DNA of 64,000 nt from Nitrospinota bacterium (GCA_016208975.1 JACQXA010000004.1:869015-933014); one strand, 5' to 3'. Shown: positions 39,941 to 62,428, numbered from the stretch's first letter. Translations and numbers: made by a program. Notes: generated by a model from the sequence alone, not told the origin.

Positions 39941-40091
39941 GGTGGTGTCGCAGTTTGAATCTCAAATAATAGACAGATCTTTCATTTCGCTTGCGCTTCG
40001 CTCAGGATGACAATGTTATCAACGGCTTTTATATTGTCATTCTGGGCGTAAGTGAAGAATCTCCCCTGTACTTTCAAACTGAGACACTACC
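39941..40091 (-). repeat. MITE-like 151-bp element, copy 1
   Basis: Inverted copy of a family also at 49262, 51930 and 62278. The ends are GGTGGTGTCgCAGTTTGAA and the complement of GGTAGTGTCTCAGTTTGAA. The interior is itself a long inverted repeat around GATAACATTGTCATCC-type sequence, so the whole element can fold. It is flanked by an exact 8-bp duplication, TGGTTGAA, at 39933-39940 and 40092-40099 (nine bases if the adjoining C is counted). There is no coding capacity. It lies in the 477-base gap between ppa and the cytochrome-porin. Confidence 0.85.
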
Positions 40092-40103
40092 TGGTTGAAG
40101 AAT

Positions 40104-40255
40104 CCGTGGTCAGCGACCACGGGGAAGCGGGGTAAACGGCGTCCACAGCGAAGCGGATCGGGCGGCCATGGGGAAACTGAATTGTCACCCTGAGCCTGCC
40201 GAAGGGTGACAACAGTTAGTGTCGGGCTTCGATAGGCTCAGCCTGACAGGCTTCA
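40104..40255. repeat. REP-like palindromes
   Basis: Three palindromes in a row. CCGTGGTC-AGC-GACCACGG (40104-40122) recurs twice in the repeat near 45.4-45.6 kb. GTCACCCT...AGGGTGAC lies near 40185-40212. A related inverted copy, GTCGGGCTTCGATAGGCTCAGCCTGAC, lies near 40221-40247; it is written here in two parts as GTCGGGCTTCG and ATAGGCTCAGCCTGAC. The last two share the CTGAGCC core with the MITE-like element. They resemble REP elements found in many bacteria. Confidence 0.6.
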
Positions 40256-40290
40256 ACAAGCCCGGACTGGCAAGTTCGGCTCCCGCAAAT

Positions 40291-40321
40291 AAAAAGGGCC
40301 TCCACCCGAAGGTGGAGGCCC
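40291..40321 (-). terminator. Rho-independent terminator of the cytochrome-porin gene
   Basis: An 11-bp perfect stem, GGGCCTCCACC (40296-40306) with GGTGGAGGCCC (40311-40321), loop CGAA. On the minus strand it is followed by TTTTTATTT. A strong terminator for the gene ending at 40347. Confidence 0.9.
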
Positions 40322-40346
40322 GTAAGAGCGTTACGCTTGCTTCGGT

Positions 40347-41546
40347 TTAGAAGCCGGCGAATACCATGACGGTGAGCTGGTTGTCCTTGCTCCGGCCATC
40401 TTCGCTGTACACAGTGTACTCCGGCGTGATGGACACGTTCTGGGCCAGGTTCCAGGTCAGCTTGCCAGTGATAGCGGAGGTCTTCAGGTCGGAAGAGCCG
40501 CTCTTATCAGTGGTGTTGCCATAAGCCAGGCCAAGCACCAGAGCCTTGCTCAGGCCGAGCTCGGCCTGCGCGGAGAGGTAGTCACCCTTTTTGTACATCA
40601 CGTCATTCGCGGAGACGGTGACATACTGGGCCTGCAGCTCGAGGGTCATGCCACCCACGTCGCCCTGGGCCTGGAGGTCAACACCGAGAGCTTCGGTTTT
40701 GACTTCGGCGATGGCGGTGCCATCGAGGCCGAGGTTGCCGCAGTTGCCGCATTTGGTCTTGCCAGCGGTGCCGAACACGCCGATGAGGGTGTCAAAACCA
40801 CCCAGGGTCGGCATAACAGCCACGCGATAGGAAGTGGACAGGTCGAACCCGGTGTCCGGGCCTTCGATGGCCGGGCCCCAGAGGCCGACGGCGGCGAATA
40901 TCAGGCCGGTGTTGGCGTACAGGGTAAGACCGGTCACCTCGCCGTCACCCAAGCCGGAAGCCTGAGCGGCGGAGGTCTCTTTCCTGTGCTCGAAAGCGCG
41001 GGCAGAGCGGACAACGCCGGTGTTGGAGAGGTCCATGCCCCAGAAAGGCCCAAGGGCGTCGGTAGCGAAAGCCACCAAGCCGGCCCTTACGTCACCCACG
41101 GTGCCGGTGAAGACAACCTTGGAGGACACGGCAGGCCCGGGGAACTCTACGGCGTAACCCACGTTCTTGCCAGCGCGGCCGGCGAACCAGGCGGCGGCTT
41201 CATCATAAACCTGCCACTCACCGCGCTCCAGACCCACTTTCGGATCGGAAGACGTTTTGTTGGTGGCCTGCTGGTAGCGATACTTGATCACGAAGGACAC
41301 CGGAGCGGTAGCCGGAACGGACACCAACTCGTCCTCGATCAGGTCCACAGCGGCGTCAGTGAAACCGCCAGCTTTGAACGAGCGCCCGAAAGCGTTCAGT
41401 TTCGGGATGTGCTGATAGTGACAGCTAAAGCAGGGCAGGTTCATCTGCCGGGCAAATGACGGAACCGCCGCGCTCTCCTTCGGCGTCACCATCACGCCCA
41501 TCATGGCGAACGCCATGACCGACATAACGACAAAAAGTTTCTTCAT
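40347..41546 (-). CDS. outer-membrane cytochrome-porin fusion, Cyc2-like
   Basis: 399 residues. A signal peptide (to about residue 27) is followed by a short cytochrome segment, PSFARQMNLPCFSCHYQH, with one CxxCH heme site (C39-H43), then PKLNAFGRSFKAGG. The rest is beta-rich and ends in aromatic VFAGF, so it should be an outer-membrane barrel. This layout is that of Cyc2, the outer-membrane Fe(II) oxidase of iron-oxidising bacteria, though many uncharacterised relatives share the FARQ-CxxCH-LNxFGRxFK motif. A second CxxC without His (KCGNCGN, about residue 265) may sit in a loop. A GAGGAGG ribosome-binding site is present. It is divergent from a small cytochrome c. Confidence 0.8.
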   Translation of the reverse strand: MKKLFVVMSVMAFAMMGVMVTPKESAAVPSFARQMNLPCFSCHYQHIPKLNAFGRSFKAGGFTDAAVDLIEDELVSVPATAPVSFVIKYRYQQATNKTSSDPKVGLERGEWQVYDEAAAWFAGRAGKNVGYAVEFPGPAVSSKVVFTGTVGDVRAGLVAFATDALGPFWGMDLSNTGVVRSARAFEHRKETSAAQASGLGDGEVTGLTLYANTGLIFAAVGLWGPAIEGPDTGFDLSTSYRVAVMPTLGGFDTLIGVFGTAGKTKCGNCGNLGLDGTAIAEVKTEALGVDLQAQGDVGGMTLELQAQYVTVSANDVMYKKGDYLSAQAELGLSKALVLGLAYGNTTDKSGSSDLKTSAITGKLTWNLAQNVSITPEYTVYSEDGRSKDNQLTVMVFAGF

Positions 41547-42180
41547 TTAAACACGCCTCCTCAAAAAGTTAACTTAAGGCACCTAGACATATATTTCACA
41601 CCCGCTCTGTAACCGGGTTTGAAATCACTGTGGACAGCTCGAATTGATGAGTTCTATTAATACACCCCTCTGCTCACCACTATAAGCGTGGGACAATTTT
41701 TATTACATTCAACACTTAATGTCAAGTCTAAATGTTAATTTTTGATTTGCCGGAAACCTGCCCCCTTATGAGGCTACTAATAGATGTCCAGGGTGGAAAG
41801 CGATTTGCGCCCGCAATTTCAACACCTGGGGCCTGTACATATGCGCGCAAAAGCTGTGGATAGAAAGCATCAACGCCCGCGGAGGCCATATAAAGAGCCT
41901 TTGAGCCCAAAATTTCCTTGACAGAGAACTGGTCAAAGTTTAGGATTTGGGCCTTAGTCAAACTATATAACGCCGCGCATCCGGCCGCTTTAACTTTTGT
42001 ACCGGTATAAAGCGGGTTCGCTTACGCGGACACCGGCGTTGACGGGGGAATCCGGATGCTCTTTGGCTGACCGCTAAAATTATCTTTTGTCCTATTTGTT
42101 GGGGTAACACCGCGCGGGCTTTTTTGTCTGTAAAAATCCGCGAGGTTACGATAAATCCTTAACCGTTTTGGAGGAGTTTC
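41547..42180. other. 634-base gap between divergent cytochrome genes
   Basis: AT-rich sequence (especially 41640-41760) that must hold the promoters of both cytochrome genes. Ribosome-binding sites for each lie at its ends (GAGGAGG and GGAGGAG). GCATCCGG near 41974 and CCGGATGC near 42052 form a distant inverted pair. I saw no convincing gene, tRNA or terminator. Confidence 0.5.
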
Positions 42181-42564
42181 ATGAAGAAACACATTTTGGG
42201 CATGGTTACCGTTTGTTTCGCTATGGTGGTGGCCTTCGCCGGCTTCGCTTCCGCCGGGGACGCTGGCAAGGGCGAAGGGGTTTTCAAGGGCAAGGGCCAG
42301 TGCAAAAACTGCCACAAGCTCGATGATAAGAATTCCGTTGGCCCCGGCCTCAAAGGCGTGACCGCCAGGCATAACGACGAATGGCTTGGCAAATGGCTGG
42401 CCGACCCGCAGAAAACCTGGGAAGGTAACGACGCCGATGTACAGAAGCTGAAAACCTGGAAACCCGGCCGTGACAAGGCCGCGAAAACCGCTATGAAGAT
42501 CCCCGCTCTTTCCGCCGAGGAAGTTGCGGACCTGATAGCGTTCCTGCATCAGAACGACAAATAA
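42181..42564 (+). CDS. periplasmic class I cytochrome c
   Basis: 127 residues: signal peptide (cleavage after FASAG, about residue 25), heme motif CKNCH (41-45), GPGLKGV loop, and the distal ligand M105 in MKIPALSAEEVADLIAFL. This is a mono-heme c-type electron shuttle. It is transcribed away from the cytochrome-porin and could carry electrons between that protein and inner-membrane complexes. The ribosome-binding site GGAGGAG is strong and a terminator follows, so it is a one-gene unit. Confidence 0.94.
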   Translation: MKKHILGMVTVCFAMVVAFAGFASAGDAGKGEGVFKGKGQCKNCHKLDDKNSVGPGLKGVTARHNDEWLGKWLADPQKTWEGNDADVQKLKTWKPGRDKAAKTAMKIPALSAEEVADLIAFLHQNDK

Positions 42565-42593
42565 GCGTTTCCCGCTTATTTAGTTAAAAAACG

Positions 42594-42623
42594 CCCCGGC
42601 GGTAACCATCGCCGGGGTTTTTT
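42594..42623 (+). terminator. Rho-independent terminator after cytochrome c
   Basis: CCCCGGCG (42594-42601) pairs with CGCCGGGG (42610-42617) around an eight-base loop and is followed by TTTTTT. A textbook terminator for the cytochrome gene. Confidence 0.92.
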
Positions 42624-42849
42624 ATTCGCTGAATATTTTTAACATTCAATCCCATGTCCTTTTTTCCCCAAACTCCTGCTTTTTGTATCCATTTGATATT
42701 CTAAGGTATAGATAATATTTGCGGCGGCTTTATGCTCGCAAATAGCTACGATTTATTCCAAATGGCTCAATCCAAGCCCATTTGCATATTAAGTTGATTG
42801 AACACATATTAGATTTAAAGATGTTTTGGGTCAGCAGGAGGGTTGTTTC

Positions 42850-43038
42850 ATGTCCGGAAAGACCATGGCCACTGAATCTGAACCTAAAAAACCCCAGGAT
42901 TATAGGGATGTTTCAGTCAGTGAGTCCAAAACGGCGGAGGGGAAGCGAGAAGGATCCGCTCCGGCCCAGCAGAGCTTGGGAAAAGTGACCGGCAACGCAA
43001 GTGATGGCTTTTCAATGCCGTCCGACTTTTTCGGTTAG
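42850..43038 (+). CDS. small protein with C-terminal DFFG, unknown
   Basis: 62 residues, hydrophilic and probably disordered, rich in Ser, Lys, Glu and Gly, with no signal peptide. It ends MPSDFFG. The ATG at 42850 is seven bases after AGGAGG, a very strong ribosome-binding site, so I believe it is translated. The next small gene ends with the same four residues, although the two proteins are otherwise unrelated. No family was recognised. Confidence 0.6.
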   Translation: MSGKTMATESEPKKPQDYRDVSVSESKTAEGKREGSAPAQQSLGKVTGNASDGFSMPSDFFG

Positions 43039-43200
43039 CATTGTTAATTGATCTGCTTTTTCCATAAAAGCCGGGCGCATAAAATCCGGGGCTAATCGTT
43101 TGAATATTTAATGTTTCCAAGCTTGGAGTTCTACAAGCCTTTGATTTTTACCGGGTACAGGCGCATATTAGAATCAGGGGCGGAAGTAGGAGATACGATC

Positions 43201-43416
43201 ATGCTGGAGAGGGTTTCTTCAACCCAGATGGCTATCACGGAAAGACGCCGGGTGGCGCTCATAGAACAGGCCCAGAAAACGGGCATCATACTCACCGATG
43301 GCGAGTTTTGGGGCGGCATTGAACGCCGGGGCGGGAAAGGCATTCCGAGGAAAAAGGAAAAGCCCGAGGAGAAGACCCGGGAAGAGTGCCAGGAGCCGTG
43401 TGATTTCTTCGGTTAA
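43201..43416 (+). CDS. small protein with C-terminal DFFG, unknown
   Basis: 71 residues from the ATG at 43201 (AGGAGA seven bases upstream); an upstream in-frame ATG at 43111 lacks a ribosome-binding site. It has a helical N-terminus (MAITERRRVALIEQAQKTG), then GEFWGGIERRGGKG, a very charged Lys/Glu stretch, CQEPC and the end DFFG shared with the preceding gene. Seventeen bases later another good ribosome-binding site begins a third short frame. Function unknown. Confidence 0.6.
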   Translation: MLERVSSTQMAITERRRVALIEQAQKTGIILTDGEFWGGIERRGGKGIPRKKEKPEEKTREECQEPCDFFG

Positions 43417-43432
43417 TTCGAAGGAGTGATTT

Positions 43433-43591
43433 ATGGGCGAGAAGAGGAAAGAGGGGATTTCCGCAATCCCCCGGAAAGATGTTATTTCTTTGCTTTCAGC
43501 AAGAAAAGCAGGGCCGATGCACAGAAAACTGCAACGAGGAAGGCATCAAACCCAACACGCAGGGCGAGCCGGTAGGAAAGGAGGGAAATAA
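43433..43591 (+). CDS. possible third small gene, truncated or fortuitous
   Basis: A 52-codon frame with AAGGAG six bases before its ATG, starting 17 bases after the previous small gene. Only the first 16 or so codons (MGEKRKEGISAIPRK) lie outside the antisense end of the phosphate permease gene. The remainder reads as a basic shadow of that gene. It may be a gene cut off by a past rearrangement, or chance. The first part also overlaps the hairpin at 43453-43471. Confidence 0.28.
   Translation: MGEKRKEGISAIPRKDVISLLSARKAGPMHRKLQRGRHQTQHAGRAGRKGGK
43453..43471 (-). terminator. possible terminator of the phosphate permease gene
   Basis: GGGGATT (43453-43459) pairs with AATCCCC (43465-43471). 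On the minus strand the hairpin is followed by TCTTTCCTCTTC and lies 11 bases after the permease stop. The U tract is imperfect. Confidence 0.42.
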
Positions 43592-44573
43592 GCGCGGTTA
43601 CCGGTATGGTTGCGGCCCAGGCGTATATGAGGTGGGTTACCATATCCCGCCCCATCTTGCCGGCGGTCTTCGCCGCCCCAACGCCAATTATTGAAGATAT
43701 GGCAACGTGAGTGGTTGAAACGGGCATTCCAAGGCTTGTAGCCGCGGACAAAACCGCCCCTGTGGCGGCGTCGGCGGAAAATCCGTGGACAGGCTGGATG
43801 TCCGTTATTTTTTTGGCCACAGAACGTATTATTCTCCACCCGCCCGATAGCGTTCCCAGGCTTAGCGTGATAGCGCAAGCGGCCGTTACCCACAAGGGCA
43901 CTTGCAGGCCTTCCGAATATCCCCCATGCATCAGGACCAGCGCCATTACCCCCATGGTTTTCTGGGCGTCATTGGCGCCATGGGCCATGCTGGAAAGCGC
44001 CGCCGAGGCCACCTGTAGCCGGGCGTAAACCCTGTTCGACTTCTGGATGGAAGTGGCCACGGGCCCGGCGGATCCGGCCCATCGGGCCGCTATCCTGAAA
44101 AATGCGAACCCAACCAAAAAACCGAAAACCGGCGAGGTGAAAAGCGCCATGGCTATCTGAAAAAGGGCGCTCCAGTGGATGGGCGCCGTCAAGGCCCCGT
44201 CCATTGTGGAGGCTTTGGCCACCGCCGCGCCCAATAGGCCGGAAATAAGCGCGTGGGAAGAACTGGAAGGTAGCCCGAAACGCCATGTGAAAAGGTTCCA
44301 TATTGTGGCGGACAGCAACCCGCAAACCACAACCTGGGAATCCATGAAATGCGGATCCGCCACGCCACTTGCAATCGTGTAGGCCACCTTGTGGGAAATG
44401 AGGGAACCCGCCAGGTTGGACACCGCCGCCAGCATGAGCGCGGCGCGGGCCGTGAGCGCCCGGGTGGCGATGGCGGGGGCTATTGTGCTGGCCGCGTCGT
44501 GGAACCCCACGATATAGTTGAAAGCCAGCGCCAGGAACAGTGCGGCCAGATGGGTGAACGCCTGCTCAGGCAT
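43482..44573 (-). CDS. pit: inorganic phosphate permease, PiT family
   Basis: 363 residues with about ten membrane helices in two inverted halves, carrying the PiT signature twice (FNYIVGFHDAASTIAPAI at the N-terminus and MAHGANDAQKTMGVMAL in the second half). It moves phosphate with H+ or Na+ as a metal-phosphate complex. It overlaps its upstream partner, a DUF47 PhoU-like protein, by eight bases, the usual pairing for low-affinity phosphate uptake. Confidence 0.95.
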   Translation of the reverse strand: MPEQAFTHLAALFLALAFNYIVGFHDAASTIAPAIATRALTARAALMLAAVSNLAGSLISHKVAYTIASGVADPHFMDSQVVVCGLLSATIWNLFTWRFGLPSSSSHALISGLLGAAVAKASTMDGALTAPIHWSALFQIAMALFTSPVFGFLVGFAFFRIAARWAGSAGPVATSIQKSNRVYARLQVASAALSSMAHGANDAQKTMGVMALVLMHGGYSEGLQVPLWVTAACAITLSLGTLSGGWRIIRSVAKKITDIQPVHGFSADAATGAVLSAATSLGMPVSTTHVAISSIIGVGAAKTAGKMGRDMVTHLIYAWAATIPVTALISLLSYRLALRVGFDAFLVAVFCASALLFLLKAKK

Positions 44574-45261
44574 GCTCGATTAAAAGATCCTCCACGGTCT
44601 TTATCATGTCCACCAGGGTGTCCAAAAGCTCTTCCATCCGGTCCAGGATCATTTCGTCCATCATACCCCGGCGGTAATCCATAAGCCTGTTGGCCTCGGC
44701 GGCGGCGTTTATACCCGCCAGAATCTCTTTCTTGTGTCGCCAATACACCGCGTCCGCGGCGGTTTCCATGGCGTTCATCAAATCCAGCGTGGCGGCTATT
44801 TTGCCCATGTTGGCCCTGGAATCGGCCATCAACTCCGGCAGGGCCATGGCCTCGGCTATACCTTTCCTGTATATCTCCAGCTGTTCGCTTACAAACGCGG
44901 GGAACCCTGAACGGTAGTTCGAATGGATAACCAGCTTGGCCGACTCGTCGAGCATGTCCACCGCGTTGTCCAGACATTCGAACATCCTTCGCAGGTCCAT
45001 GGCGGAATAGGGCGGGGTGAAGGTGCGTTTCAGGCCGCCAGCCACGCGGACAAGTATCTCGTCCCCTTTCTTCTCCAGCCGTTTGAGATTGTCCAACAGC
45101 CGTTCTTTTTCTTCCTGCGTGAGAGATTGTTTGGAGCAGGCATCCAGATACAAATCAACACCGGAGCTGATGAGCTTTAGCATCTCCCCCATGGGGCCGA
45201 AAAAATCCACCTCCTCGGGGAAGAAAAACCGGGAAAGCCTGCCAACCACATCAGAGAGCAT
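44566..45261 (-). CDS. DUF47 PhoU-like protein
   Basis: 231 residues, all-helical PhoU-like fold (FFGPMGEMLKLISSG, MDLRRMFECLDNAVDMLDESAKL given by its ends, VDMIKTVEDLLIEH). Members are paired with Pit permeases and are thought to regulate them. It overlaps pit by eight bases. Its first codons lie inside the first unit of a 180-bp tandem repeat, so the duplicated DNA is its own upstream region. No strong ribosome-binding site is visible. Confidence 0.93.
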   Translation of the reverse strand: MLSDVVGRLSRFFFPEEVDFFGPMGEMLKLISSGVDLYLDACSKQSLTQEEKERLLDNLKRLEKKGDEILVRVAGGLKRTFTPPYSAMDLRRMFECLDNAVDMLDESAKLVIHSNYRSGFPAFVSEQLEIYRKGIAEAMALPELMADSRANMGKIAATLDLMNAMETAADAVYWRHKKEILAGINAAAEANRLMDYRRGMMDEMILDRMEELLDTLVDMIKTVEDLLIEHA

Positions 45262-45653
45262 CGTGCGCTCAACTTTTCGTTTTATTGTTTTTCATCACTA
45301 ATCCAGGTCAGGGAAAAGCGAAAGTTGTTATATTGGCTTCGCCGGGGTCGCCCGACCCCGGTCTTCCACACACTAATAAAGAATCGTGGTCAGCGACCAC
45401 GGTGAAGCATAACAAAGCCTGTTCAGAAAATCAGAAGGCATCGCGCGCTCCCGTTTTCGTTTCATCGTTTCCCATCACTAATTCCAGGTCAGGGAAAGGC
45501 GAAAGTTGTCATATTGGCTTCGCCGGGGTCGCCCGACCCCGGTCTTCCACGCGCGAGCATAGGACCGTGGTCAGCGACCACGGTGAAGCATAACAAAGCC
45601 TGTTCAGAAAATCAGAGGGCATCGCGCGTCCATTTTCGATTCATCGTTTCCCA
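45250..45653. repeat. 180-bp tandem repeat upstream of DUF47-pit
   Basis: Two full units (45250-45429 and 45430-45610, period 180-181) and a partial third (45611-45653). Each begins ATCAGArRGCATCG and continues with GTCAGGGAAA, GGCTTCGCCGGGGTCG and GTGGTCAGCGACCAC, the last two lying in perfect palindromes (CGGGGTCG/CGACCCCG and CGTGGTC/GACCACG). The first unit includes the DUF47 start codon. This repeat fills the 450-base gap before the AmpG-like gene. No coding sequence was recognised in it. Confidence 0.85.
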
Positions 45654-45712
45654 TGACCGCATTTTAACACTTATAATGTACGGACTTTTCGGGCAGTGCG
45701 AATTTAAGGAAC

Positions 45713-46981
45713 ATGAGCAAACAGTCCACTTCCCCATATCTATCGGTGTTCACCAACCGCCGGGTGGCCGCCGTGAGCATATTGGGTTTTTCATCGGGTC
45801 TGCCGCTGGCCATGACCGGTAGCTCGTTGCAGGCGTGGATGACCGTGGCGGGGGTGGATCTGACATCCATCGGCCTGTTCGGGCTGGTGGCCTTGCCTTA
45901 CACGGTGAAATTCCTCTGGGCGCCGCTGATGGACCGGTTCGCGCCGCTACCTCTTGGGCGGCGGCGCGGGTGGATAGCTTTCACCCAATTGGCGTTAGCG
46001 GCGCTGATGGTACTGATGTCTTTCGCGGCTCCGGACGAAACCCCATTCGCGCTGGCGGCGCTGGCGCTTTCGCTGGCGTTCATGTCCGCATCGCAGGACA
46101 TCGTGATAGACGCGTACCGGACCGATATTTTAAGGGAACGTGAACGCGGCGCGGGGGTGGCGGTGTTTGTCACCATGTACCGGCTGGCGATGATAACCTC
46201 CGGCGCGATGGCGCTTATCGCGGCGGACAGGTTCGGCTGGCCCGCCACGTTCCGCATGATGGCAGTTATCATGGCCGTACAGGTGGCGGGCACGTTGCTG
46301 GCTCCGGAGCCGGACGGGGAGATAAAACCGCCCCGCACGTTGTCCGAAGCGGTATGGGGGCCGCTAAAAAACTATTTCTCCAAAGACGCGGCGATTCTCA
46401 CGCTGGCGCTCATCGTCCTTTACAAGCTGGGGGACGCTTACGCCGGTAGCCTTTCCACCACGTTTTTGCTCCGGGGAATGGAGTTTACGCAAACCGAGGT
46501 TGGCGCCATCAACAAGGGGTTCGGACTGGCGGCCACCATCGCCGGTTCGTTCCTGGGCGGAATACTGATGGCGCGGATGCCGCTGTACAGGGCGCTTATG
46601 GCTTTCGGAATTCTGCAGGCGGTTTCGAACCTTTCATATATGGCGCTGGCGGTTTATGGAAAAAATTTTGGATTGCTGATATTCGCCATAGGGTTTGAGA
46701 ATTTCACCGGCGGCATGGGCTCCGCGGCGTTCGTGGCCCTGTTGATGGCCCTGTGCGACCACCGGTTTTCAGCCACCCAATACGCCATACTGTCGTCGCT
46801 ATCGGCGCTGGGCCGGACGTTCGTCACCCCCACTTCCGGATATCTTGTGGAATATATGGGATGGGCCGCGTTTTTCGGATTCACAGCCATCACCGCATTG
46901 CCCGGCTTGGCCCTGTTGTGGTTCTTGAGGGGGAAGATAGATGGGTTGAACGGGAACCAGGAGAAAGAGGCGGCAGTATGA
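45713..46981 (+). CDS. AmpG-like muropeptide MFS transporter
   Basis: 422 residues, 12 membrane helices. The N-terminal LGFSSGLPLAMTGSSLQAWM, the LWAPLMDRF loop and the SASQDIVIDAYRTDIL motif in helix 4 are hallmarks of AmpG, which imports GlcNAc-anhydroMurNAc peptides for wall recycling. An AAGGA ribosome-binding site precedes the ATG. No beta-lactamase regulator or recycling gene is nearby. The end nearly touches the convergent vapC gene. Confidence 0.9.
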   Translation: MSKQSTSPYLSVFTNRRVAAVSILGFSSGLPLAMTGSSLQAWMTVAGVDLTSIGLFGLVALPYTVKFLWAPLMDRFAPLPLGRRRGWIAFTQLALAALMVLMSFAAPDETPFALAALALSLAFMSASQDIVIDAYRTDILRERERGAGVAVFVTMYRLAMITSGAMALIAADRFGWPATFRMMAVIMAVQVAGTLLAPEPDGEIKPPRTLSEAVWGPLKNYFSKDAAILTLALIVLYKLGDAYAGSLSTTFLLRGMEFTQTEVGAINKGFGLAATIAGSFLGGILMARMPLYRALMAFGILQAVSNLSYMALAVYGKNFGLLIFAIGFENFTGGMGSAAFVALLMALCDHRFSATQYAILSSLSALGRTFVTPTSGYLVEYMGWAAFFGFTAITALPGLALLWFLRGKIDGLNGNQEKEAAV

Positions 46982-46990
46982 TTCTCATTA

Positions 46991-47398
46991 TTAAATATTG
47001 GGAACCTCATAGCATTTCAAGCCAGCGCATGCCTTGATAAAGTCAAAATCACTGTCTTTATGGAAGAGGGCCAGATTATTCTCCATGCATATGGCGGCGA
47101 TGATGCAATCAATCGTTTTCCTTACTGTTTTTCCCTTTTTTCTGCATTCTTTGTAAATCCGCGCCGCCTCAATATACGTTTCGATGCCCTTCGGGCGCAA
47201 AACAGGAAACGTCATAAGGCTTTGCTTGACTGTTTGAAACTGGCGTTCGTCTTTAACGCCTTGAAGAATCTCCGTCATGATTATTTCAGTAATGGCCATG
47301 TCTTCATCGGCTTCAATAAGTCTATGAAGGGCTTTCCGGTGAGGCGAGTCCACGCCCCTAAAAAAGTCAATCCAGACGCTGGTGTCCACCAGGATCAT
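46991..47398 (-). CDS. vapC: PIN-domain ribonuclease toxin VapC
   Basis: 135 residues. The PIN acidic residues are present: D5 in MILVDTSVWIDFF, a glutamate in TEIIMTEIL, D in RKTIDCIIAAICMEN and D in FHKDSDFD. It is an Mg2+-dependent RNase, usually acting on tRNA or rRNA. Its ATG overlaps the vapB stop (ATGA), so toxin translation is coupled to that of the antitoxin. It begins the more AT-rich accessory stretch. Confidence 0.94.
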   Translation of the reverse strand: MILVDTSVWIDFFRGVDSPHRKALHRLIEADEDMAITEIIMTEILQGVKDERQFQTVKQSLMTFPVLRPKGIETYIEAARIYKECRKKGKTVRKTIDCIIAAICMENNLALFHKDSDFDFIKACAGLKCYEVPNI

Positions 47399-47595
47399 GT
47401 TCTGCTTTTTCTCGTCTCGTCAAGATTACCAGCCCAGGCAACCTTGCCCTCCATGTCCAGAAGCTTCCTGCGCTTAAGTTTAAGCACAAGCTCCTCAATG
47501 GCGTAATTCACCAGCTCCTTTTTAGTCTTCTTGCGCGTAAGCCTTAAGGCCTCACTCACAAGCTTCTCGTCGAGCTCAATATTGGTTCTTAACAT
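47395..47595 (-). CDS. vapB: VapB-type antitoxin
   Basis: 66 residues. The start MLRTNIELDEKLVSEALRL forms a ribbon-helix-helix-like DNA-binding region, followed by TKKELVNYAIEEL and a C-terminal toxin-binding tail with W (KVAWAGNLDE). The ATG at 47595 is preceded by AGG-rich sequence. It is expected to neutralise VapC and repress its own operon. Confidence 0.9.
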   Translation of the reverse strand: MLRTNIELDEKLVSEALRLTRKKTKKELVNYAIEELVLKLKRRKLLDMEGKVAWAGNLDETRKSRT

Positions 47596-47724
47596 CCCAA
47601 ACCTGCCTCCATCGATATACACATAGCATACCCCTTTTATGTGTACAAATAAAAGTGGGACTCGGCAGGCGCGCTGAAGCCTGTCAGGTGTTTTATTGAG
47701 TTATGAGGCGTCAGCGGGTTCGCT

Positions 47725-48453: not shown

Positions 48454-48562
48454 ATCGCCCAGCAAAGTAGCTGACAGATGCGGAAAGAAGGCTACCCATC
48501 CTCGCCAGCATATCCACCTTATTAATGGCCAAATAGCCTAACAATCAACCTAACAAATAGAG

Positions 48563-48603: not shown

Positions 48604-48663
48604 ATTAGTGCGTTCTGGATTTCCTCTACTCGGACACAATTATTGTGTTTGGAGGAAAGCGTC

Positions 48664-48984: not shown

Positions 48985-48996
48985 CACAAAATCCAT

Positions 48997-49261: not shown

Positions 49262-49412
49262 GGTAGTGTCTCAGTTTGAAAGTACAGGGGAGATTCTTCA
49301 CTTACGCTCAGAATGACAATATAAAAGCCGTTGATAACATAGTCATCCTGAGCGAAGCGCAAGCGAAGTGAAGGATCTGTCTGTTATTTGAGATTCAAAC
49401 TGAGACACCACC
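49262..49412 (+). repeat. MITE-like 151-bp element, copy 2
   Basis: Same length and ends as the other copies (GGTAGTGTCTCAGTTTGAA at the left, complement at the right). It sits inside the hicAB operon and supplies the last nine codons and stop of the shortened hicA. No 8-bp flanking duplication remains: CGGAATTG on the left and TGATTTTC on the right, which fits loss of adjoining hicA sequence after insertion. Confidence 0.85.
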
Positions 49413-51823: not shown

Positions 51824-51929
51824 GTCACAAGCCCTGATATTTTAATGGTGTAAAACCCTTACCCGCCACCGGAACCGAACAATAAATGATGCTTTATGGG
51901 CTGTTTTTTGTCAACTTGGCCCCGGCGAG

Positions 51930-52080
51930 GGTAGTGTCCCAGTTTGAAAGTACTGGGGAGATTCTTCACTTACGCTCAGAATGACAATATAAAAGCCGTT
52001 GATAACATTGTCATCCTGAACGAAGCGCAAGCGAAGTGAAGGATCTGTCTATTATTTGAGATTCAAACTGAGACACCACC
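51930..52080 (+). repeat. MITE-like 151-bp element, copy 3
   Basis: Begins GGTAGTGTCCCAGTTTGAA and ends with the complementary GACACCACC. The flanks are CCGGCGAG (51922-51929) and CCGGCGTG (52081-52088), an 8-bp duplication with one change. It lies in the 330-base gap between lysA and a damaged antitoxin gene, and may have displaced the original start region of that gene. Confidence 0.88.
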
Positions 52081-52094
52081 CCGGCGTGACTGTA

Positions 52095-53717: not shown

Positions 53718-53729
53718 ATCCAAAACGCG

Positions 53730-54689: not shown

Positions 54690-54736
54690 TAATATATCCG
54701 TAGTAACTTATTTTTAAATCGAAGGCGTAACCATAG

Positions 54737-55519
54737 ATGCATCCTGTACTTTTTGAGTTCGGCCCCATAACCATCCACACTTATGGCCTGTTGGTGGCTT
54801 CCGGGTTTATGCTGGGCATCGCCTGGACAGCCAGGCTGGGCAACAAAGAGGGGTTCGATCCCCAGGTGGTTTACGACACGGCGTTCTGGCTGGTGCTTTC
54901 GGCTATCCTTTCGTCCCGCCTGGCCTACGTCATAGTTGAATATAAACATTTCGCCACCCATCCGCTGGACATCGTAAAATTCTGGGAAGGGGGCCTTGTG
55001 TTTTACGGCGGCGTTATTGGCGCGGTTTTGGCCCTTTACATCTGCGCGAAAAAATACGGCTTTAACTTGTGGAAGTTCGGCGACATCGCCGCGCCGGGGG
55101 TGGCCCTGGGGCATGTGCTGGGCCGGCTGGGCTGTTTCTTCGCAGGTTGCTGTTACGGGCAAGAGACAAACGTGCCATGGGCGGTCACCTTCCGCGATGT
55201 AAAATCCATCGCCCCACTGGACGTGCCGTTGCATCCCACCCAGCTTTACGATGCGCTCAACGAGCTTATAGTGTTCGGCATTTTGACACTCATCAGGCCA
55301 TACAAGAAATTTAACGGCCAGATATGGTGGACATGGGTTGGCCTTTATTCTTCGGGCCGGATAGTGGTGGAATCTTTCCGGGGCGATCCCAGGGGGTTCT
55401 GGTTCCATGGTCTATTGTCCACCTCGCAAATACTTGGCGCCCTGGGTGTAACCCTGGCTATCGCCATGTATTTTAAAAAGCGGAAAGACGCCGCCGGGGC
55501 CGATGCCGGAAGGGATTAA
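54737..55519 (+). CDS. lgt: prolipoprotein diacylglyceryl transferase
   Basis: 260 residues, seven membrane helices. It attaches diacylglycerol from phosphatidylglycerol to the lipobox cysteine of prolipoproteins. Conserved elements are FGPITIHTYGLL, the Lgt signature as GHVLGRLGCFFAGCCYGQET near residue 125 and HPTQLYDAL. The signature carries Cys pairs where Asn is usual. It overlaps rluD by 17 bases. Confidence 0.97.
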   Translation: MHPVLFEFGPITIHTYGLLVASGFMLGIAWTARLGNKEGFDPQVVYDTAFWLVLSAILSSRLAYVIVEYKHFATHPLDIVKFWEGGLVFYGGVIGAVLALYICAKKYGFNLWKFGDIAAPGVALGHVLGRLGCFFAGCCYGQETNVPWAVTFRDVKSIAPLDVPLHPTQLYDALNELIVFGILTLIRPYKKFNGQIWWTWVGLYSSGRIVVESFRGDPRGFWFHGLLSTSQILGALGVTLAIAMYFKKRKDAAGADAGRD

Positions 55520-56447
55520 CAGCGTCACCCTTACGGTTCCGCCAGATTCCGCCGGAGCGAGGATAGACAAGTTCATAGCCGATTCCCCGGCTGGTCTCTC
55601 CCGCTCGTTCGTCCAGAAGCTGTTAGACGAAGGGCTGGTTAGCGTCAGCGGCAAGGTGGCGCATGCGTCCACAAAACTAAAATCCGGCGATACGGTGGCT
55701 TTCACCATCCCCGCGCCAAAACCGGCGCAGGTCCTACCCGAAAACATTCCGCTGGATGTCGTGTATGAGGATGATGACATCATCGTAATCAACAAACCCG
55801 CTGGGATGGTGGCCCACCCGGCCGCCGGGCATTTTACGGGAACGCTGGTGCACGCCCTGCTTGAGCATTGCATGGGCAACCTTTCCGGCGTGGGGGGTGA
55901 GCTGAGGCCGGGCATAGTGCACCGGCTGGACAAGGACACCACCGGGCTTATCGTGGCGGCGAAAAACGACCGCGCCCACCAATCCCTCACAAACCAGCTT
56001 TCCGAGAGAGCCATGTCCCGGGTATATGTGGCGGTGGTGAAGGGATCGCCAAAACAGGCCGAGGGAGTGGTTGAAGCCAACATCGGGCGGCATCCCAAGC
56101 AAAGGAAAAAGATGGCGGTGTTGAAAAGGGGCGGCAGGCCCGCCGCAACAAAATACCGGGTCACCCAAAACCTCGGGAAAGCCAGCGTGGTGGAGCTCTC
56201 CCTGTTGACCGGAAGGACCCACCAGATAAGAGTGCATATGCAGAGCATAAACTGCCCGGTGGCGGGGGATCAGGATTACGCCCGTTCCGGCGGGGGTTAT
56301 CCAATCAAGCGCCAGGCCCTTCACGCGTGGCGGTTGAAACTTGTCCACCCGGTGTCCGGAGAGCATATGGAGTTTAGCGCGCCTCTGCCCGAAGACATGA
56401 CGCAACTAATAAAATTTCTAGGCGGTAATCCGGAGCCTTATCTATAA
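55503..56447 (+). CDS. rluD: 23S rRNA pseudouridine synthase, RluD family
   Basis: 314 residues. An S4 RNA-binding domain (about 18-75; ARIDKFIADSPAGLSRSFVQKLL by ends) is followed by the pseudouridine synthase domain with INKPAGMVAHPA and the catalytic aspartate in GIVHRLDKDTTG, then LLTGRTHQIRVHM. Family membership is firm; the exact target (23S 1911/1915/1917 for RluD) is inferred. Its start lies inside the lgt gene. Confidence 0.93.
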   Translation: MPEGINSVTLTVPPDSAGARIDKFIADSPAGLSRSFVQKLLDEGLVSVSGKVAHASTKLKSGDTVAFTIPAPKPAQVLPENIPLDVVYEDDDIIVINKPAGMVAHPAAGHFTGTLVHALLEHCMGNLSGVGGELRPGIVHRLDKDTTGLIVAAKNDRAHQSLTNQLSERAMSRVYVAVVKGSPKQAEGVVEANIGRHPKQRKKMAVLKRGGRPAATKYRVTQNLGKASVVELSLLTGRTHQIRVHMQSINCPVAGDQDYARSGGGYPIKRQALHAWRLKLVHPVSGEHMEFSAPLPEDMTQLIKFLGGNPEPYL

Positions 56448-56496
56448 CGCGCCGGGGGCTTGTCCTGAAAGTCCCTGTCGGTTATATTCCATAATC

Positions 56497-57258
56497 ATGC
56501 TGATAATTAGCGAAGACGAAGAGAAAAAGTTCAGCCTGTCCCCGATCCAGTCCTTTATTAATTTAATCGGGCGGGCGTCGGGTATGCCTCTGGCCTGGCT
56601 GTTTTACAAGGCGCTTAACCGCTCCAGGGCCATCGGTCTTGAGAACCTTCCCAAAGAAGGTGGGGCGCTTCTGGCGTCGAACCACGTATCCGGCGTGGAT
56701 ACCATGTTGATACCTTATTTCGCCTACTCCAAACGCCCGTTCATAACCCCAGCCAAGGAGGAGCTTTTCAAGGTTCCCGTGATGGGTCCAATTTTAAAGT
56801 TTTGGGGCGCGTTCCCGGTGAAACGCCACTCACGGGATGTGGAATCCATGAAACGAATCGCGGTATCCGCCCGGAAATATATGGTCATGATATTTCCCGA
56901 AGGCACCCGCACCAAAACCGGCAACCTGCTCAAAGGCAGGCCCGGCGTTGGCTGGATAGCCTACAGCGCCCATCCGGTGGTGATCCCCACCCTGGTGATA
57001 AATACCGACAAGTTTTTCTGGCCTGGCAGGCCCCGCCCATGGTTCGGAGTGCCATACACAGTGGTATTCGGTGAACCGGTGGATCTGTCCCGTTTCTACG
57101 ACCTGCCAGACACCAAAGAAACTTCCCAGGCTATCGTGGACGAGATAATGGACAAGATAGGCGAGCTGAAAAAGAAACACAGCGATATTTATCTAAACCC
57201 GGTCCTGTTGCCCGACGGCTCGCCCGCCGGACAGCTTATAGACGGTGTGGTGAAATAA
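56497..57258 (+). CDS. plsC: 1-acyl-glycerol-3-phosphate acyltransferase-like
   Basis: 253 residues. The acyltransferase motifs are in order: SNHVSGVDTML (HX4D), GAFPVKRHSRD, MIFPEGTRTK and IPTLVINTDKF. One membrane-associated helix sits near residues 30-45. It probably makes phosphatidic acid, though PlsC-like proteins vary in acceptor. It overlaps rnhB by one base. The gene symbol is by family. Confidence 0.88.
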   Translation: MLIISEDEEKKFSLSPIQSFINLIGRASGMPLAWLFYKALNRSRAIGLENLPKEGGALLASNHVSGVDTMLIPYFAYSKRPFITPAKEELFKVPVMGPILKFWGAFPVKRHSRDVESMKRIAVSARKYMVMIFPEGTRTKTGNLLKGRPGVGWIAYSAHPVVIPTLVINTDKFFWPGRPRPWFGVPYTVVFGEPVDLSRFYDLPDTKETSQAIVDEIMDKIGELKKKHSDIYLNPVLLPDGSPAGQLIDGVVK

Positions 57259-57908
57259 TGCTCACCTTCGAGCGGAACGCGGCGGCCCAGGGGTTTTGCC
57301 GCGTGGCCGGGGTGGACGAAGCCGGCCGCGGCCCCTTGGCGGGCCCGGTAGTGGCCGCGGCGGTCATTCTTCCGCCGGGGGTGGACATGCCCGGCCTGAC
57401 CGACTCTAAAAAACTTTCCGAAGATGCCAGGCGGAAGTTTTACCCCACAATCATGGAAACGGCGGTGGCGTGGAAAGTGGCCGCTGTGGAGGCGGATGAA
57501 ATAGACCGGATAAATATCCTTCAGGCCACAAAAATGGCCATGCGCATGGCGGTGGAGGGTTTGGGTGTTGAGCCGGATCACCTGCTGATAGACGGCAACC
57601 AGAAGATATCCTGGCGCGGTTCGCAAAGGACCATTGTTAAGGGGGATTCGTTGTCCCTCTCCATCGCCGCCGCCTCGGTGCTGGCGAAGGTGACGCGGGA
57701 CAGGATAATGGAAGAGCATGCCCTTCAGTATCCCGTTTACGGTTTCCAGCGGCACAAGGGATACGGAGTGGCGGAACATCTGGAAGCTATCCGCCAACAC
57801 GGCCCCAGCCCCATCCATCGCAAAACCTTCAGGGGAGTGAAGGAGCATTTGGCCAAAGAAGTATCAGAAAAGCTTTTTGGGCAAATATCTATCCCTTCCT
57901 TAACCTAA
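57258..57908 (+). CDS. rnhB: ribonuclease HII
   Basis: 216 residues. It nicks RNA-DNA junctions to remove misincorporated ribonucleotides. The active-site acids are in VAGVDEAGRGPLAGP (D and E), DHLLIDGN and the conserved ASVLAKVTRDRIM that follows. The position directly before yraN is very common in bacteria. Confidence 0.97.
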   Translation: MLTFERNAAAQGFCRVAGVDEAGRGPLAGPVVAAAVILPPGVDMPGLTDSKKLSEDARRKFYPTIMETAVAWKVAAVEADEIDRINILQATKMAMRMAVEGLGVEPDHLLIDGNQKISWRGSQRTIVKGDSLSLSIAAASVLAKVTRDRIMEEHALQYPVYGFQRHKGYGVAEHLEAIRQHGPSPIHRKTFRGVKEHLAKEVSEKLFGQISIPSLT

Positions 57909-57909
57909 A

Positions 57910-58341
57910 ATGGGACATATATGGCGTAGCTTGATCCGCTGGATATTGGATAGAGTGGCGTTCTTGAAGGCAAGGACGGGTTCCAGCGCAGGGCATTTAC
58001 GGCTGGGCAGGCTGGGGGAGGATTTGGCCGCCAACGCCCTTATTGGCGGGGGTTATAAAATACTCCATCGCAACCTGAAGGTGTACCGGCGCGAGGTGGA
58101 CATCATCGCCGACCATAATGGGACTCTGGTGTTCGTGGAGGTGAAAACCCGGGCCAACCATTCATTCGGCACACCCCTGGGATCCATAAACCACAAACGG
58201 GAAAAACGGCTCCGGGAAGCCGCCGAGCTTTATGCCATGAGGAACAAGATAACCAACCGCTCCATCCGGTTCGACGTGGTTTCCGTGGATTTTAGCGAAG
58301 GAGGAGGCCCTAAGCTGGAGATAATAAAAAACGCTTTTTAA
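57910..58341 (+). CDS. YraN family endonuclease-like protein
   Basis: 143 residues, UPF0102 with a PD-(D/E)xK nuclease-like core: LGRLGEDLAANALI, then REVDIIADHNGTLVFVEVKTRAN with the acidic and lysine residues of the fold in VDI and EVK. The biological role is unsettled, though it nearly always neighbours rnhB. The first 30 residues (basic/hydrophobic) precede the family start, so the real start may be internal. Confidence 0.93.
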   Translation: MGHIWRSLIRWILDRVAFLKARTGSSAGHLRLGRLGEDLAANALIGGGYKILHRNLKVYRREVDIIADHNGTLVFVEVKTRANHSFGTPLGSINHKREKRLREAAELYAMRNKITNRSIRFDVVSVDFSEGGGPKLEIIKNAF

Positions 58342-58415
58342 GTCAACCGGTTCAAGAGGGTTACGGGGAGCAATACACTATCTGAAAGCCTCAAGGGTAA
58401 TAATCAACCAAGCCC

Positions 58416-58640
58416 TTATGCCTTGATGCTGATCTTAGAGCTTCCCTGGGCGCCCTGCGCCACTTTGCGGCCATTGGCCACAAAATTCTGCGTGTGCTGG
58501 GCCGCAACGCTCTGTAGCGAAGAAGGGTTGGTGGCCGGCATCATCTTGGAGTTCCCGGGGGGCGTCTGCATCATCTTGGTGCGGGAATAGCCCATACCCA
58601 CCGTCCCATAACTACCGGCCCCGCTTGCGAATAACGGCAT
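58416..58640 (-). CDS. small protein of unknown function
   Basis: 74 residues, low in charge, rich in Ser, Gln, Gly and Met, with no signal peptide and no cysteine. It ends in a basic SSKISIKA. GGAG nine bases before the ATG supports translation. It is divergent from flgM across about 240 bases. No family was recognised; the company of flgM makes a motility link possible but unproven. Confidence 0.5.
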   Translation of the reverse strand: MPLFASGAGSYGTVGMGYSRTKMMQTPPGNSKMMPATNPSSLQSVAAQHTQNFVANGRKVAQGAQGSSKISIKA

Positions 58641-58881
58641 AACTCAATCTCCAGATTCCACCTCATCAGCTTTATCGGCGCTTTTTCGGAATACTTTAGT
58701 CCCCGCGCGCCAATTATTAATAATTATACATCCGCGATGATATAATCCTTAAACTATATTAAGGACTTGTACTGTTGAGGGTTGTTTGGGGGTAAACTGA
58801 TTTCCCTAAACTTTGACCGTGAGGGTTCCGATATAACAATTACGAAAGACAATCGTGGTATCCTCGTAAAGGATATAGGTC

Positions 58882-59202
58882 ATGGTAATTGAAAGAATAA
58901 CGGGTGGTAAACCCCAGGAAGTCCGGAAAGCCGAAAAGGAGGATGTAAAGAAATCCCCTGCTCCGGCTAAAAAGGAGGCGGAAGCCCCAAAAGGCTTCGA
59001 TATGGCTTCCAGCGCCGCCACGGTTTCCGAAAGAAGCAAAGCGGCCATCAAGGCTTATCGCATCGCCATGGAGTCGGACCCTTATTTGTCCAGGGCGGCC
59101 AAAGTGGCGCAGATAAAGTCCCAGGTGATGGAGGGAACGTATCATCCTTCCAGCGGAGATGTGGCCCAGGCCATTCTGCAGAGCATCGTAAAGGGGAGTT
59201 AG
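58882..59202 (+). CDS. flgM: anti-sigma-28 factor FlgM-like
   Basis: 106 residues. The first half is Lys/Pro/Ala-rich and disordered, as in FlgM. The C-terminal half contains the sigma-28-binding helices: SRAAKVAQIKSQVMEGTYHPSSGDVAQAIL matches the FlgM consensus (given as residues about 70-99). FlgM holds FliA inactive until the hook is complete and is then exported. No other flagellar gene is in the window. An AAGGA ribosome-binding site is present. Confidence 0.8.
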   Translation: MVIERITGGKPQEVRKAEKEDVKKSPAPAKKEAEAPKGFDMASSAATVSERSKAAIKAYRIAMESDPYLSRAAKVAQIKSQVMEGTYHPSSGDVAQAILQSIVKGS

Positions 59203-59220
59203 TCCAGCGCGGGGTTTTAC

Positions 59221-59251
59221 AAAAAGCCTGCGCCGGTTAGCGCCCCTTTTT
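59221..59251. terminator. bidirectional terminator between flgM and the kinase gene
   Basis: AAAAAG (59221-59226) pairs with CTTTTT (59246-59251), with an inner GCGC/GCGC stem, separated by a small internal loop. T runs exist on both strands, fitting the two convergent genes. Confidence 0.5.
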
Positions 59252-59268
59252 CTTTATCTTCCCCGGAA

Positions 59269-60981
59269 TCAGCGTAAATCCAGCCGCAAAGTCTCACCGG
59301 CTTTTATCTTTACCCTGTTGTTATAAGGCGACCTGCCTTTAAACTGGACATATACAAGGTGCGTTCCGGTGGAAAGGTTTTTCACATGCACCCGCTCGGT
59401 CTTGAATTCCCTGCCGTCCACGTAAGTAACACTGCCGCCGGGGACAAATATCTCCAATGCGCCGGAATCGGCGGAAGCCGAAGTTGAGCCATTGGTGGTG
59501 GAGGGTTTAGCCGTGGATCCGGTTTGCTCGGCTATCCTGGTGAGGGCGGCGGAAAAGCTCCCCTTTGTCCCCAATGTGATCTGTTTCACCTGGGGTTTAT
59601 AGCCTTTTTTGTTTATCTTTACGGTTAAATCACCGCTTTTGACCTTCATGTTATTGATTGGAGTGGAGCCGATAAACTTGCCGTTTATGAACACCTCGGC
59701 TCCGTCCGGCTCTGAATTCACCGTAAGATATCCGTATCTTGCGCCAGCCGCCGGAGCCGGTTTCTCCGTTTCCGGTGTTACAGAGGTAGCCTGCTTGACC
59801 GGCTCTTTCTTCTCTGGCTTAACCGCTGGTGTGCCCGGCGCCGCACCTGGCGCAGACGCCACCGGGGCGACGGGGGCAGATGTGGCCGCTACCGGCTCAG
59901 GCGCAGGCTTGGGCGTAGCCGCCGGGGCGGGCTCCACCTTGGCCACCTGTTGAGGCTTTTCTTCCCCTCCGCCGGAGAACACAAATACCGCCACCAGCAG
60001 GGCCAATACCACGCCCACACCACCGCCAATGTACATGCCTGTCTTTCCACCAAGCTTCGGCATACCCTTCATGGACGGGATTTTTGGGGCCATACGGCCA
60101 TCAATAACGATGGTGGAGTCCCCTAAGATATTGAAATCCTTTTCTGAATTCGTAAGGATGGCGTTGAGCGCCCTTATATATTCCTGGCCGTTCTGGAACC
60201 GCGAATCCGGGTTCTTCGCCAAACCTTTCTTTATAAAAGCGTCCACCACCGGCGGCAAAGTGGCGTTCAGCCTGCGGGGTGGGATGGGCTCTTCGTTGAC
60301 CACCTTATAGATTACCGAGGTGATAGACTCGGCCGAGAACGGTTTCTCGTTGGTGATCATCTCGTACAGCAGGACTGTTAGAGAGAAGAAGTCCGACCTG
60401 GCGTCCACCTGGCGCCCCTGCACCTGTTCGGGTGACATATAGTTGGGCGTGCCCAAAATGGTTCCGGTCATGGTCAAAGACGAATCCGAAAGCCTGGCCA
60501 GGCCAAAATCGGTAAGTTTCGGAATATTCTCTTCTGTAACAATGATGTTGGCCGGTTTAACGTCCCGGTGGATAACGCCCCGCTTATGGGCATAGTCCAG
60601 CCCTTCGGCTATCTGGCGGACAATGTTTACTATCTCTTCAAGGTTGGTGAAAGTGCGGTTGTTTATGTGCCAGTCCAGCCCACGGCCACTAAGAAACTCC
60701 ATGGCGATGTAAACCATGGTACCGTCGGGAGTGGCTTCCTCCCCCGCATCGTATATGGTGACTATGTTGGGGTGGGAAAGCTGGCCGGCGGCCTGGGCCT
60801 CCACATGGAACCTGTGGGCGGCCTGCTGTTGGTCGGCGCTTTTGGAGCCTAGGGCCGGGCGCACAACTTTCAGGGCCACAAGACGGTTTATTTTTGGATC
60901 CCGCCCTTTATAGACGAGACCCATGCCGCCACTGCCTATTTCTTCTATTATTTCAAAACGGCCCAGATGCTTTATAGCCAT
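59269..60981 (-). CDS. PknB-type Ser/Thr protein kinase with PEGA domains
   Basis: 570 residues. The cytosolic kinase domain (about 7-270) has the Gly loop GSGGMGLVYKG, the lysine in ALKVV, HRDVKPANIIV and DFGLARL, all intact. A membrane helix lies at about 315-335, then a Pro/Ala-rich linker, a PEGA domain (YLTVNSEPDGAEVFINGKFIG by ends) and a second PEGA-like domain at the C-terminus, outside the membrane. It probably links an envelope signal to phosphorylation. It overlaps the alanine dehydrogenase gene by 10 bases. Confidence 0.92.
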   Translation of the reverse strand: MAIKHLGRFEIIEEIGSGGMGLVYKGRDPKINRLVALKVVRPALGSKSADQQQAAHRFHVEAQAAGQLSHPNIVTIYDAGEEATPDGTMVYIAMEFLSGRGLDWHINNRTFTNLEEIVNIVRQIAEGLDYAHKRGVIHRDVKPANIIVTEENIPKLTDFGLARLSDSSLTMTGTILGTPNYMSPEQVQGRQVDARSDFFSLTVLLYEMITNEKPFSAESITSVIYKVVNEEPIPPRRLNATLPPVVDAFIKKGLAKNPDSRFQNGQEYIRALNAILTNSEKDFNILGDSTIVIDGRMAPKIPSMKGMPKLGGKTGMYIGGGVGVVLALLVAVFVFSGGGEEKPQQVAKVEPAPAATPKPAPEPVAATSAPVAPVASAPGAAPGTPAVKPEKKEPVKQATSVTPETEKPAPAAGARYGYLTVNSEPDGAEVFINGKFIGSTPINNMKVKSGDLTVKINKKGYKPQVKQITLGTKGSFSAALTRIAEQTGSTAKPSTTNGSTSASADSGALEIFVPGGSVTYVDGREFKTERVHVKNLSTGTHLVYVQFKGRSPYNNRVKIKAGETLRLDLR

Positions 60982-62084
60982 TTTTCTGGAAATCTATACG
61001 AAAGTTCAAGGGATTCCGCCACTTGCGGGTGGGTAACCATTCCTTCGGCCACGTTCAAACCCATCCGCATAGAATAGTTGGAGCGCATTGTTTTATCAAT
61101 CCCTTTTTCCGCCAGCTCCAGCAGTCCGGGAAAGGTGGCGTTGGACAAAGCGAAAGTTGAAGTGCGCGGCACGGCCCCAGGCATATTGGATACACAATAA
61201 TGGGTAACCGAATCAACAACATAAGTCGGGTTTGAGTGGCTCGTGGGATGGGTGGTTTCGGCCATGCCGCCTTGATCCACCGCCACGTCCACTATCACGG
61301 AGCCGGGTTTCATATCGGCCAGCATGTCCCGGGTGATTAATACTGGCGTGCGCCCACCAGCCACCAGCGCCGCGCCGATAACCATATCGGCGTCATCTAT
61401 GGCGGCGCAAACGGTATGCTGGTTCGAATACATGGTTTCGGCCCGCCCGCCGAAAATGTCGTCGATCATCCGCAACTTCGTCAGGTTCGTATCCAACACC
61501 TGGGTTCTGGCGCCCAACCCCAAGGAAATTTTCACCGCGTTCATCCCCACTATGCCGGCGCCTAGCACCACCACTTTTCCCGGCGGCACCCCGGGTACCC
61601 CGCCCAGCAATACCCCCCGGCCGCCATTTTCTTTTTCCAGATACCGCGCCCCGGCCTGAACGGCCATCCTTCCGGCCACTTCGCTCATCGGAATAAGCAT
61701 GGGCAACGCCCCTGTGGCCTGATCCTGGACGGTTTCATAACCTATGGCTACGGTTCCGGTTTCCAGAAGTTTTTTCGCCAGCTCTGGCGCGGCGGCCAAA
61801 TGCAGGAACGTGTAAAGGATCAACCCCTCGCGCAAAAACTGGTATTCGGAAGGGATGGGCTCTTTCACCTTGGCCACAATATTTGCGCCCCAAGCTTCCC
61901 CGGCGGTATCCACCATCCGGGCGCCAGCCTCTTCATATTCGGCGTCGAGTATGCCGGAACCTTCCCCCGCGCCACGCTGGACAAGGGTTTCATGCCCGGC
62001 AAGCGTCAACTGGCGGACTCCCGCCGGAGTGACGGCCACCCGGTATTCGTCTGGTTTGACTTCTTTTGGAACGCCTATGATCAC
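60972..62084 (-). CDS. ald: alanine dehydrogenase
   Basis: 370 residues. It interconverts L-alanine and pyruvate with NAD. The substrate-binding N-terminal motif is GVPKEVKPDEYRVAVTP, the catalytic lysine is in VKVKEP, the histidine in FLHLAAA, the dinucleotide site in VVLGAGIVGMNAV and the aspartate in VDVAVDQGGM. MPGAVPRTSTFALSNAT confirms the family. It is the upstream member of a two-gene unit with the PEGA kinase. Confidence 0.97.
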   Translation of the reverse strand: MIIGVPKEVKPDEYRVAVTPAGVRQLTLAGHETLVQRGAGEGSGILDAEYEEAGARMVDTAGEAWGANIVAKVKEPIPSEYQFLREGLILYTFLHLAAAPELAKKLLETGTVAIGYETVQDQATGALPMLIPMSEVAGRMAVQAGARYLEKENGGRGVLLGGVPGVPPGKVVVLGAGIVGMNAVKISLGLGARTQVLDTNLTKLRMIDDIFGGRAETMYSNQHTVCAAIDDADMVIGAALVAGGRTPVLITRDMLADMKPGSVIVDVAVDQGGMAETTHPTSHSNPTYVVDSVTHYCVSNMPGAVPRTSTFALSNATFPGLLELAEKGIDKTMRSNYSMRMGLNVAEGMVTHPQVAESLELSYRFPEKWL

Positions 62085-62277
62085 CTATGTTCCCCTAAAA
62101 AGCGATTAGGGATTATAGCACTCGTGAACGCTTTTAGGATTGCGGCGGTAATTGAAGTGACGCCGCAGTCCGGCTGATCCGGCCCCGCAGGCAATAAGCG
62201 CGAACCCTTCACTCCAGCCTTCTGCCATTACCAGAAACGCGCGCTTTAATTTCACTGACCCGTTACTACGCAACCTT

Positions 62278-62428
62278 GGTAGTGTCTCAGTTTGAAAGTA
62301 CAGGGGAGATTCTTCACTTACGCTCAGAATGACAATATAAAAGCAGTTGATAACATTGTCATCCTGGGCAAAGCGCCAGCGAAGTGAAGGATCTGTCTGT
62401 TATTTGAGATTCAAACTGAGACACCACC
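62278..62428 (+). repeat. MITE-like 151-bp element, copy 4
   Basis: Full-length copy in the 497-base gap between ald and the polymerase gene. The flanks are GCAACCTT (62270-62277) and GCAACCCT (62429-62436), an 8-bp duplication with one change. It ends 153 bases before the dnaE-type start. The rest of this gap contains only the inverted repeats listed next. Confidence 0.88.

Follow-up and report, generated by a model that had tools for sequence, protein, structure and literature searches.

Two described elements are among the closest to the repeat analysed here. ISAba3, a member of the IS1 family, has an end that begins GGTGGTGTTTCA... and is flanked by 8-bp target duplications (TSDs) (PMC6382973). 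MITEAba12 has 9-bp TSDs and a presumed partner, ISAba12, in the same strain (PMC6382973). The present repeat occurs four times in the window, a stretch of 64,000 nucleotides from a Nitrospinota bacterium (GCA_016208975.1 JACQXA010000004.1:869015-933014). As judged from sequence comparison, it is very probably an IS1-family MITE whose ends captured a hairpin and which was amplified in trans before its source transposon was lost.

Copies, target duplications and age

The window copies start at 39941, 49262, 51930 and 62278. Each is exactly 151 bp long with inverted ends of 19 bases, GGTRGTGTCYCAGTTTGAA, and the single strand folds end to end with a consensus dG of about −68 kcal/mol. The sequence-only reading had described the copies, their ends and the folding accurately, and also the 8-bp duplications at three of the copies. 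Taking as + the orientation in which the GGTA...AGTACAGGGG end comes first, copy 1 (39941..40091) lies on the − strand, between the two members of an exact TGGTTGAA pair (39933..39940 and 40092..40099). Its terminal inverted repeats (TIRs) occupy 39941..39959 (+) and 40073..40091 (−), the left one differing by one G (GGTGGTGTCGCAG), and its core carries the hairpin arm motif TGTCATCCTGAGCGAAG at 39996..40012 (−) and a second arm motif at 40035..40051 (+). The other three copies lie on the + strand. Copy 3 (51930..52080) is flanked by CCGGCGAG (51922..51929) and CCGGCGTG (52081..52088), copy 4 (62278..62428) by GCAACCTT (62270..62277) and GCAACCCT (62429..62436), with 1 mismatch in each pair, and copy 2 (49262..49412) has no recognisable TSD. 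The core inverted pair of hairpin arms spans 49302..49357 in copy 2, 51970..52025 in copy 3 and 62318..62373 in copy 4.

The complete genome to which the window belongs (2.97 Mb, 4 contigs) was searched with the two asymmetric ends separately and the results were merged. The MITE is found at about 113 places: both ends are recognised at 86, and at the remaining 27 one end has diverged, is truncated or is interrupted. The earlier estimate of hundreds was too high. Two of the 113 places, C3:141171 and 142395, belong to a single copy that has been broken in two by an insertion of about 1.2 kb with an IS3-like transposase ORF (C3:141171-142545; 2672-4046 of locus L061). Three copies on another contig (C4:2126558, 2132934 and 2133254) have common flanks, CACCTCCTTTATA and CCTTTATAGCC, which belong to another dispersed repeat containing AATCCGTGGTCGGGCGACCACGGGG, so that a larger repeat appears to have been duplicated with the MITE inside. 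The MITE DNA found no match in a search of a plasmid collection.

For 82 clean copies, left and right flanks were set against each other at repeat lengths of 3–12, with expectations taken from re-paired flanks. An exact 8-bp TSD borders 36 of the 82 copies (0.1 expected), and a TSD with at most one mismatch borders 57 (0.4 expected); lengths 3–6 and 9–12 show no peak comparable to that at 8. This genome-wide alignment of copies and flanks had been proposed as a check on the element, and the 8-bp duplications proved consistent. Between the two halves of a TSD the mismatch rate is 0.080 per site, about double the mean divergence of copies from their consensus (2 × 3.54%, or 0.071), which argues that the TSDs started out perfect and have since aged on the element's clock. 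Target sites rebuilt by joining the flanks minus one TSD have a median stop-free stretch of 369 nt, against 705 at random window positions (p ~1e-30), indicating that surviving insertions are intergenic, and the flanks are A/T-richer (48% GC versus 56%). Short and non-coding, with TIRs, a TSD of fixed length and many copies, the repeat is a real gene-less mobile element, a MITE. The central claim made for it earlier, that it is a MITE without coding sequence, leaves 8-bp duplications and owes its movement to an unseen transposase acting in trans, is upheld.

Transposons with the same ends

Of 24 genomes from this phylum, 12 contain the 19-bp end. In a Nitrospinota relative (G014) it bounds an element of 2881 bp (L218:2180-5060) with ends identical at 19/19 positions and an exact 8-bp TSD, GCAAAGTC, which encodes a 310-aa transposase, an AAA-type ATPase and an 80-aa ORF. 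The best families for the 310-aa protein are those of IS1: it scores 68 bits on NF033558 (1e-18; the cut-off of 100 is not reached) and 28.9 bits on PF03400, above the cut-off of 24.1. The partner transposase has D, D and ERxNL...R motifs, and several of its plasmid homologues are annotated 'IS1 family transposase' by NCBI. The same layout of ends, transposase and TSD recurs in G016 (L239, TSD AAAAATTA) and on plasmids of Hoeflea (L273, 4224 bp, TSD GATGATTG), Acidiphilium (L274, 2634 bp, TSD AAGCCGAG) and Mesorhizobium (L276, 3370 bp, TSD CGCTGGTG). A genome of the window genome's own order (G002) retains a decayed transposon copy with perfect or near-perfect ends and RosmerTA genes. On viral contigs, matched ends with an 8-bp TSD (at least 7/8) are found at 41 of 65 loci examined, spanning 1.4–5.6 kb. 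Full-length elements with these ends, whether in Nitrospinota relatives, on alphaproteobacterial plasmids or on viral contigs, thus encode a single-ORF IS1-family DDE transposase, and the GGT..TG ends and 8-bp TSDs of the MITE and its partner elements alike fit the IS1 family, in which TSDs are 8–9 bp long.

Cargo-bearing IS1-type transposons of 1.4–5.6 kb occur at L218, L239, L273, L274, L276, L282 and the viral loci L288–L347; further cargo among them includes a ClpP-like protease and P63C or AAA proteins. The 41 viral-contig loci, minus two duplicates and plus six others, give 45 distinct full elements. Sequence matches to PADLOC models of anti-phage defence (E below 1e-15) are found in 15 of these 45: seven RosmerTA, four PD-Lambda-2, two HEC-04, one methyltransferase and one PDC-M63B. 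These matches suggest an enrichment of defence genes in the full elements. With such cargo, the partner elements seem to be vehicles for defence cassettes, and the MITEs may therefore be scars recording past invasions by such transposons.

Neither protein search nor family search detects an IS1 transposase in the window's own genome, which makes the element there an orphaned MITE. A full insertion sequence with the same ends, which the earlier reading had advised looking for, is found in relatives, on plasmids and on viral contigs and was not detected in the genome itself. Three candidates built from unpaired ends in that genome were rejected: C3:141171-142545 is the MITE interrupted by what its ORF indicates to be an IS3-like element, and C4:2133254-2135044 (L062) and C4:1471942-1477582 (L063) are each two separate MITE copies. 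An IS6-family partner was likewise set aside, PF13610 being unmatched in the genome.

The MITE and the full elements have nothing in common in their own sequence but the 19-bp ends. A target signature is common to both: a palindromic, A/T-rich TSD and, outside it at 8–9 bp, an A on the left and a T on the right. It is strong in the MITEs (p down to 2e-9) and weaker at the same positions in the transposons (p ~1e-3 and 8e-3 on the left; 0.02 on the right at 9 bp). Because no transposase remains in the window's genome, we infer mobilisation there, and an IS1-family transposase acting in trans on the ends would be the mobilising enzyme. A MITE family is in this way assigned an enzyme from sequence evidence alone.

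The hairpin core and its possible origin

The interior of the MITE is an inverted pair of a hairpin unit, 'CGCTCAGAATGACA', roughly GATTCTTCACTTCGCTCAGAATGACA. The sequence-only reading had seen that the interior is an inverted repeat and had missed that it is a separate dispersed hairpin instead of IS-derived sequence. In its own genome the unit occurs almost exclusively inside MITE copies. In G001, the nearest relative compared (same family, another genus), it stands at 381 places, with none for a reversed-pattern control, and the 19-bp end pattern has no match at all. In G028, which lies outside the phylum, it stands at 124 places. The stretch in common there is often 27–38 bp, in single, tandem or inverted form, and the 19-bp end was not seen at the hairpin loci fetched. 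In G001 and G028 (L359–L367), bacteria from different phyla, a 27–33-bp hairpin that carries an ATGACA tail recurs hundreds of times at scattered positions; its stem pairs vary (GATTCT/AGAAT, GATTGC/GCAAT, GATCCT/AGGAT), and loop and tail look conserved. In the window's genome, a 33-bp tandem array of 4.8 units derived from the MITE hairpin arm ATGTCATCCTGAGCGAAGCG... (827-983 of L279, C3:33500-35500) adjoins a degenerate core.

The same ends also surround other cores: a GCAATGACA-type hairpin in G015, G017 and G013, a 154-bp form in G009, a GGGGCGGCATTTTGCCGCCCC-type hairpin in termite-gut Betaproteobacteria (host source inferred from MAG names) and still other hairpins in Terriglobales, Rhizobiaceae and further Proteobacteria. 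Most of these elements are flanked by exact TSDs. Mutual matches between the cores of different groups are significant only among the Nitrospinota ATGACA types and between two betaproteobacterial ones. The use of IS1-type ends reaches far beyond the IS1 of enterobacteria and takes in Nitrospinota, Alpha- and Betaproteobacteria and Acidobacteriota.

A dispersed hairpin that lacks the ends, together with the same ends around unrelated cores, makes the capture of resident hairpins between IS1-type ends the most economical origin for the MITE, the capture step and the order of events being reconstructed. Such capture is a suggested way for dispersed hairpin repeats to gain mobility. Simple internal deletion of an IS1 element, with the core as its former interior, would be the origin that textbooks give for many MITEs, and the ends and TSD length do match those of IS1 transposons. 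It is nevertheless improbable here: the core is unlike any IS1 transposon interior seen, with just the 19-bp ends in common, its motif stands at the 381 places of a genome in which the end pattern has no match, and unrelated hairpins lie within the same ends in other taxa.

It is less probable still, and indeed very unlikely, that the repeat is kept for a host function of its hairpin, as an RNA element, terminator or nucleoid site, with the TIRs and TSDs as relics. The copies are nearly all intergenic and the core hairpin family is widespread, but selection against gene disruption explains the intergenic location equally well. Ends, spacers, arms and loop have accumulated substitutions at rates within a factor of two of one another, and among the 82 copies 117 pairs are broken and 5 compensated, two polymorphic pairs set aside. 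No covariation was found across these copies, and an Rfam search of the window matched nothing but a tRNA. Compensatory change was suspected at 10/142 and 47/90 and rejected; the alleles are not cleanly co-inherited, which suggests several source copies and not selection. The hairpin decays neutrally, and no sign of host function or selection was found.

G-rich ends and 8-bp duplications are likewise features of the ISL3 and IS1595 families. The earlier guess that one of their transposases moves the MITE has next to no probability: IS1 and IS1595 are related families and the partner transposase does match IS1595 weakly (22.8 bits, E=6.7e-5), but this is far under the NF033547 cut-off of 75 and under the IS1 score of 68, PF01610 (ISL3) is unmatched in it, dozens of elements bounded by the same ends and TSDs code for an IS1-type protein, and the end of ISAba3, of the IS1 family, is nearly the same as that of the MITE (PMC6382973).

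The preferred reading, an IS1-family MITE with a captured core, would begin with the entry into the lineage of an IS1-type transposon of this clade, often with cargo genes, whose ends would have joined around a resident hairpin repeat to give the compact 151-bp unit. The transposase would have bound the 19-bp ends in trans and cut staggered 8 bp apart at A/T-rich intergenic targets, amplifying the unit until about 113 copies existed. Loss of the source transposon would have followed, after which the copies would have decayed neutrally to about 3.5% from consensus. On a wider scale, and with distinctly less confidence, we lean towards a clade of IS1-type transposons that extends across phyla, keeps its 19-bp ends near-constant and moves varied cargo, often phage-defence or toxin–antitoxin genes. 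Its ends would have independently captured many hosts' own dispersed hairpins, producing chimeric MITEs with interchangeable cores, and the window's 113 copies would be the orphaned burst of one such chimera. Provisionally, on the open-access literature searched, in which the end and core sequences are not printed, we regard this transposon clade as previously undescribed.

Comparison with IS1 elements, bacterial MITEs and extragenic hairpins

The likeness to the IS1 family (IS1; ISAba3) lies in ends that begin GGTRRTG, in the 8-bp TSD of ISAba3 (PMC6382973) and in a partner transposase that matches PF03400 and NF033558. Unlike members of that family, the MITE is without a transposase, and whereas IS1 is 0.77 kb long with two ORFs, the partner elements are 1.4–5.6 kb long, with a single transposase ORF of about 290 aa and cargo. 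As with MITEAba12 and other bacterial MITEs (PMC6382973; PMC10969869), the repeat is short and non-coding, has TSDs and has TIRs in common with an autonomous insertion sequence, and its many copies are intergenic with A/T-rich targets. It differs from MITEAba12 in that its partner is IS1-type and absent from its own genome, in a TSD of 8 bp rather than 9, and in that its ends enclose unrelated cores from one lineage to another. REP/BIME-like extragenic hairpins resemble its core unit of about 27–33 bp with an ATGACA tail, which across phyla takes the form of single units, tandem arrays and inverted pairs; unlike them, the core in its own genome lies almost solely inside the IS1-ended unit.
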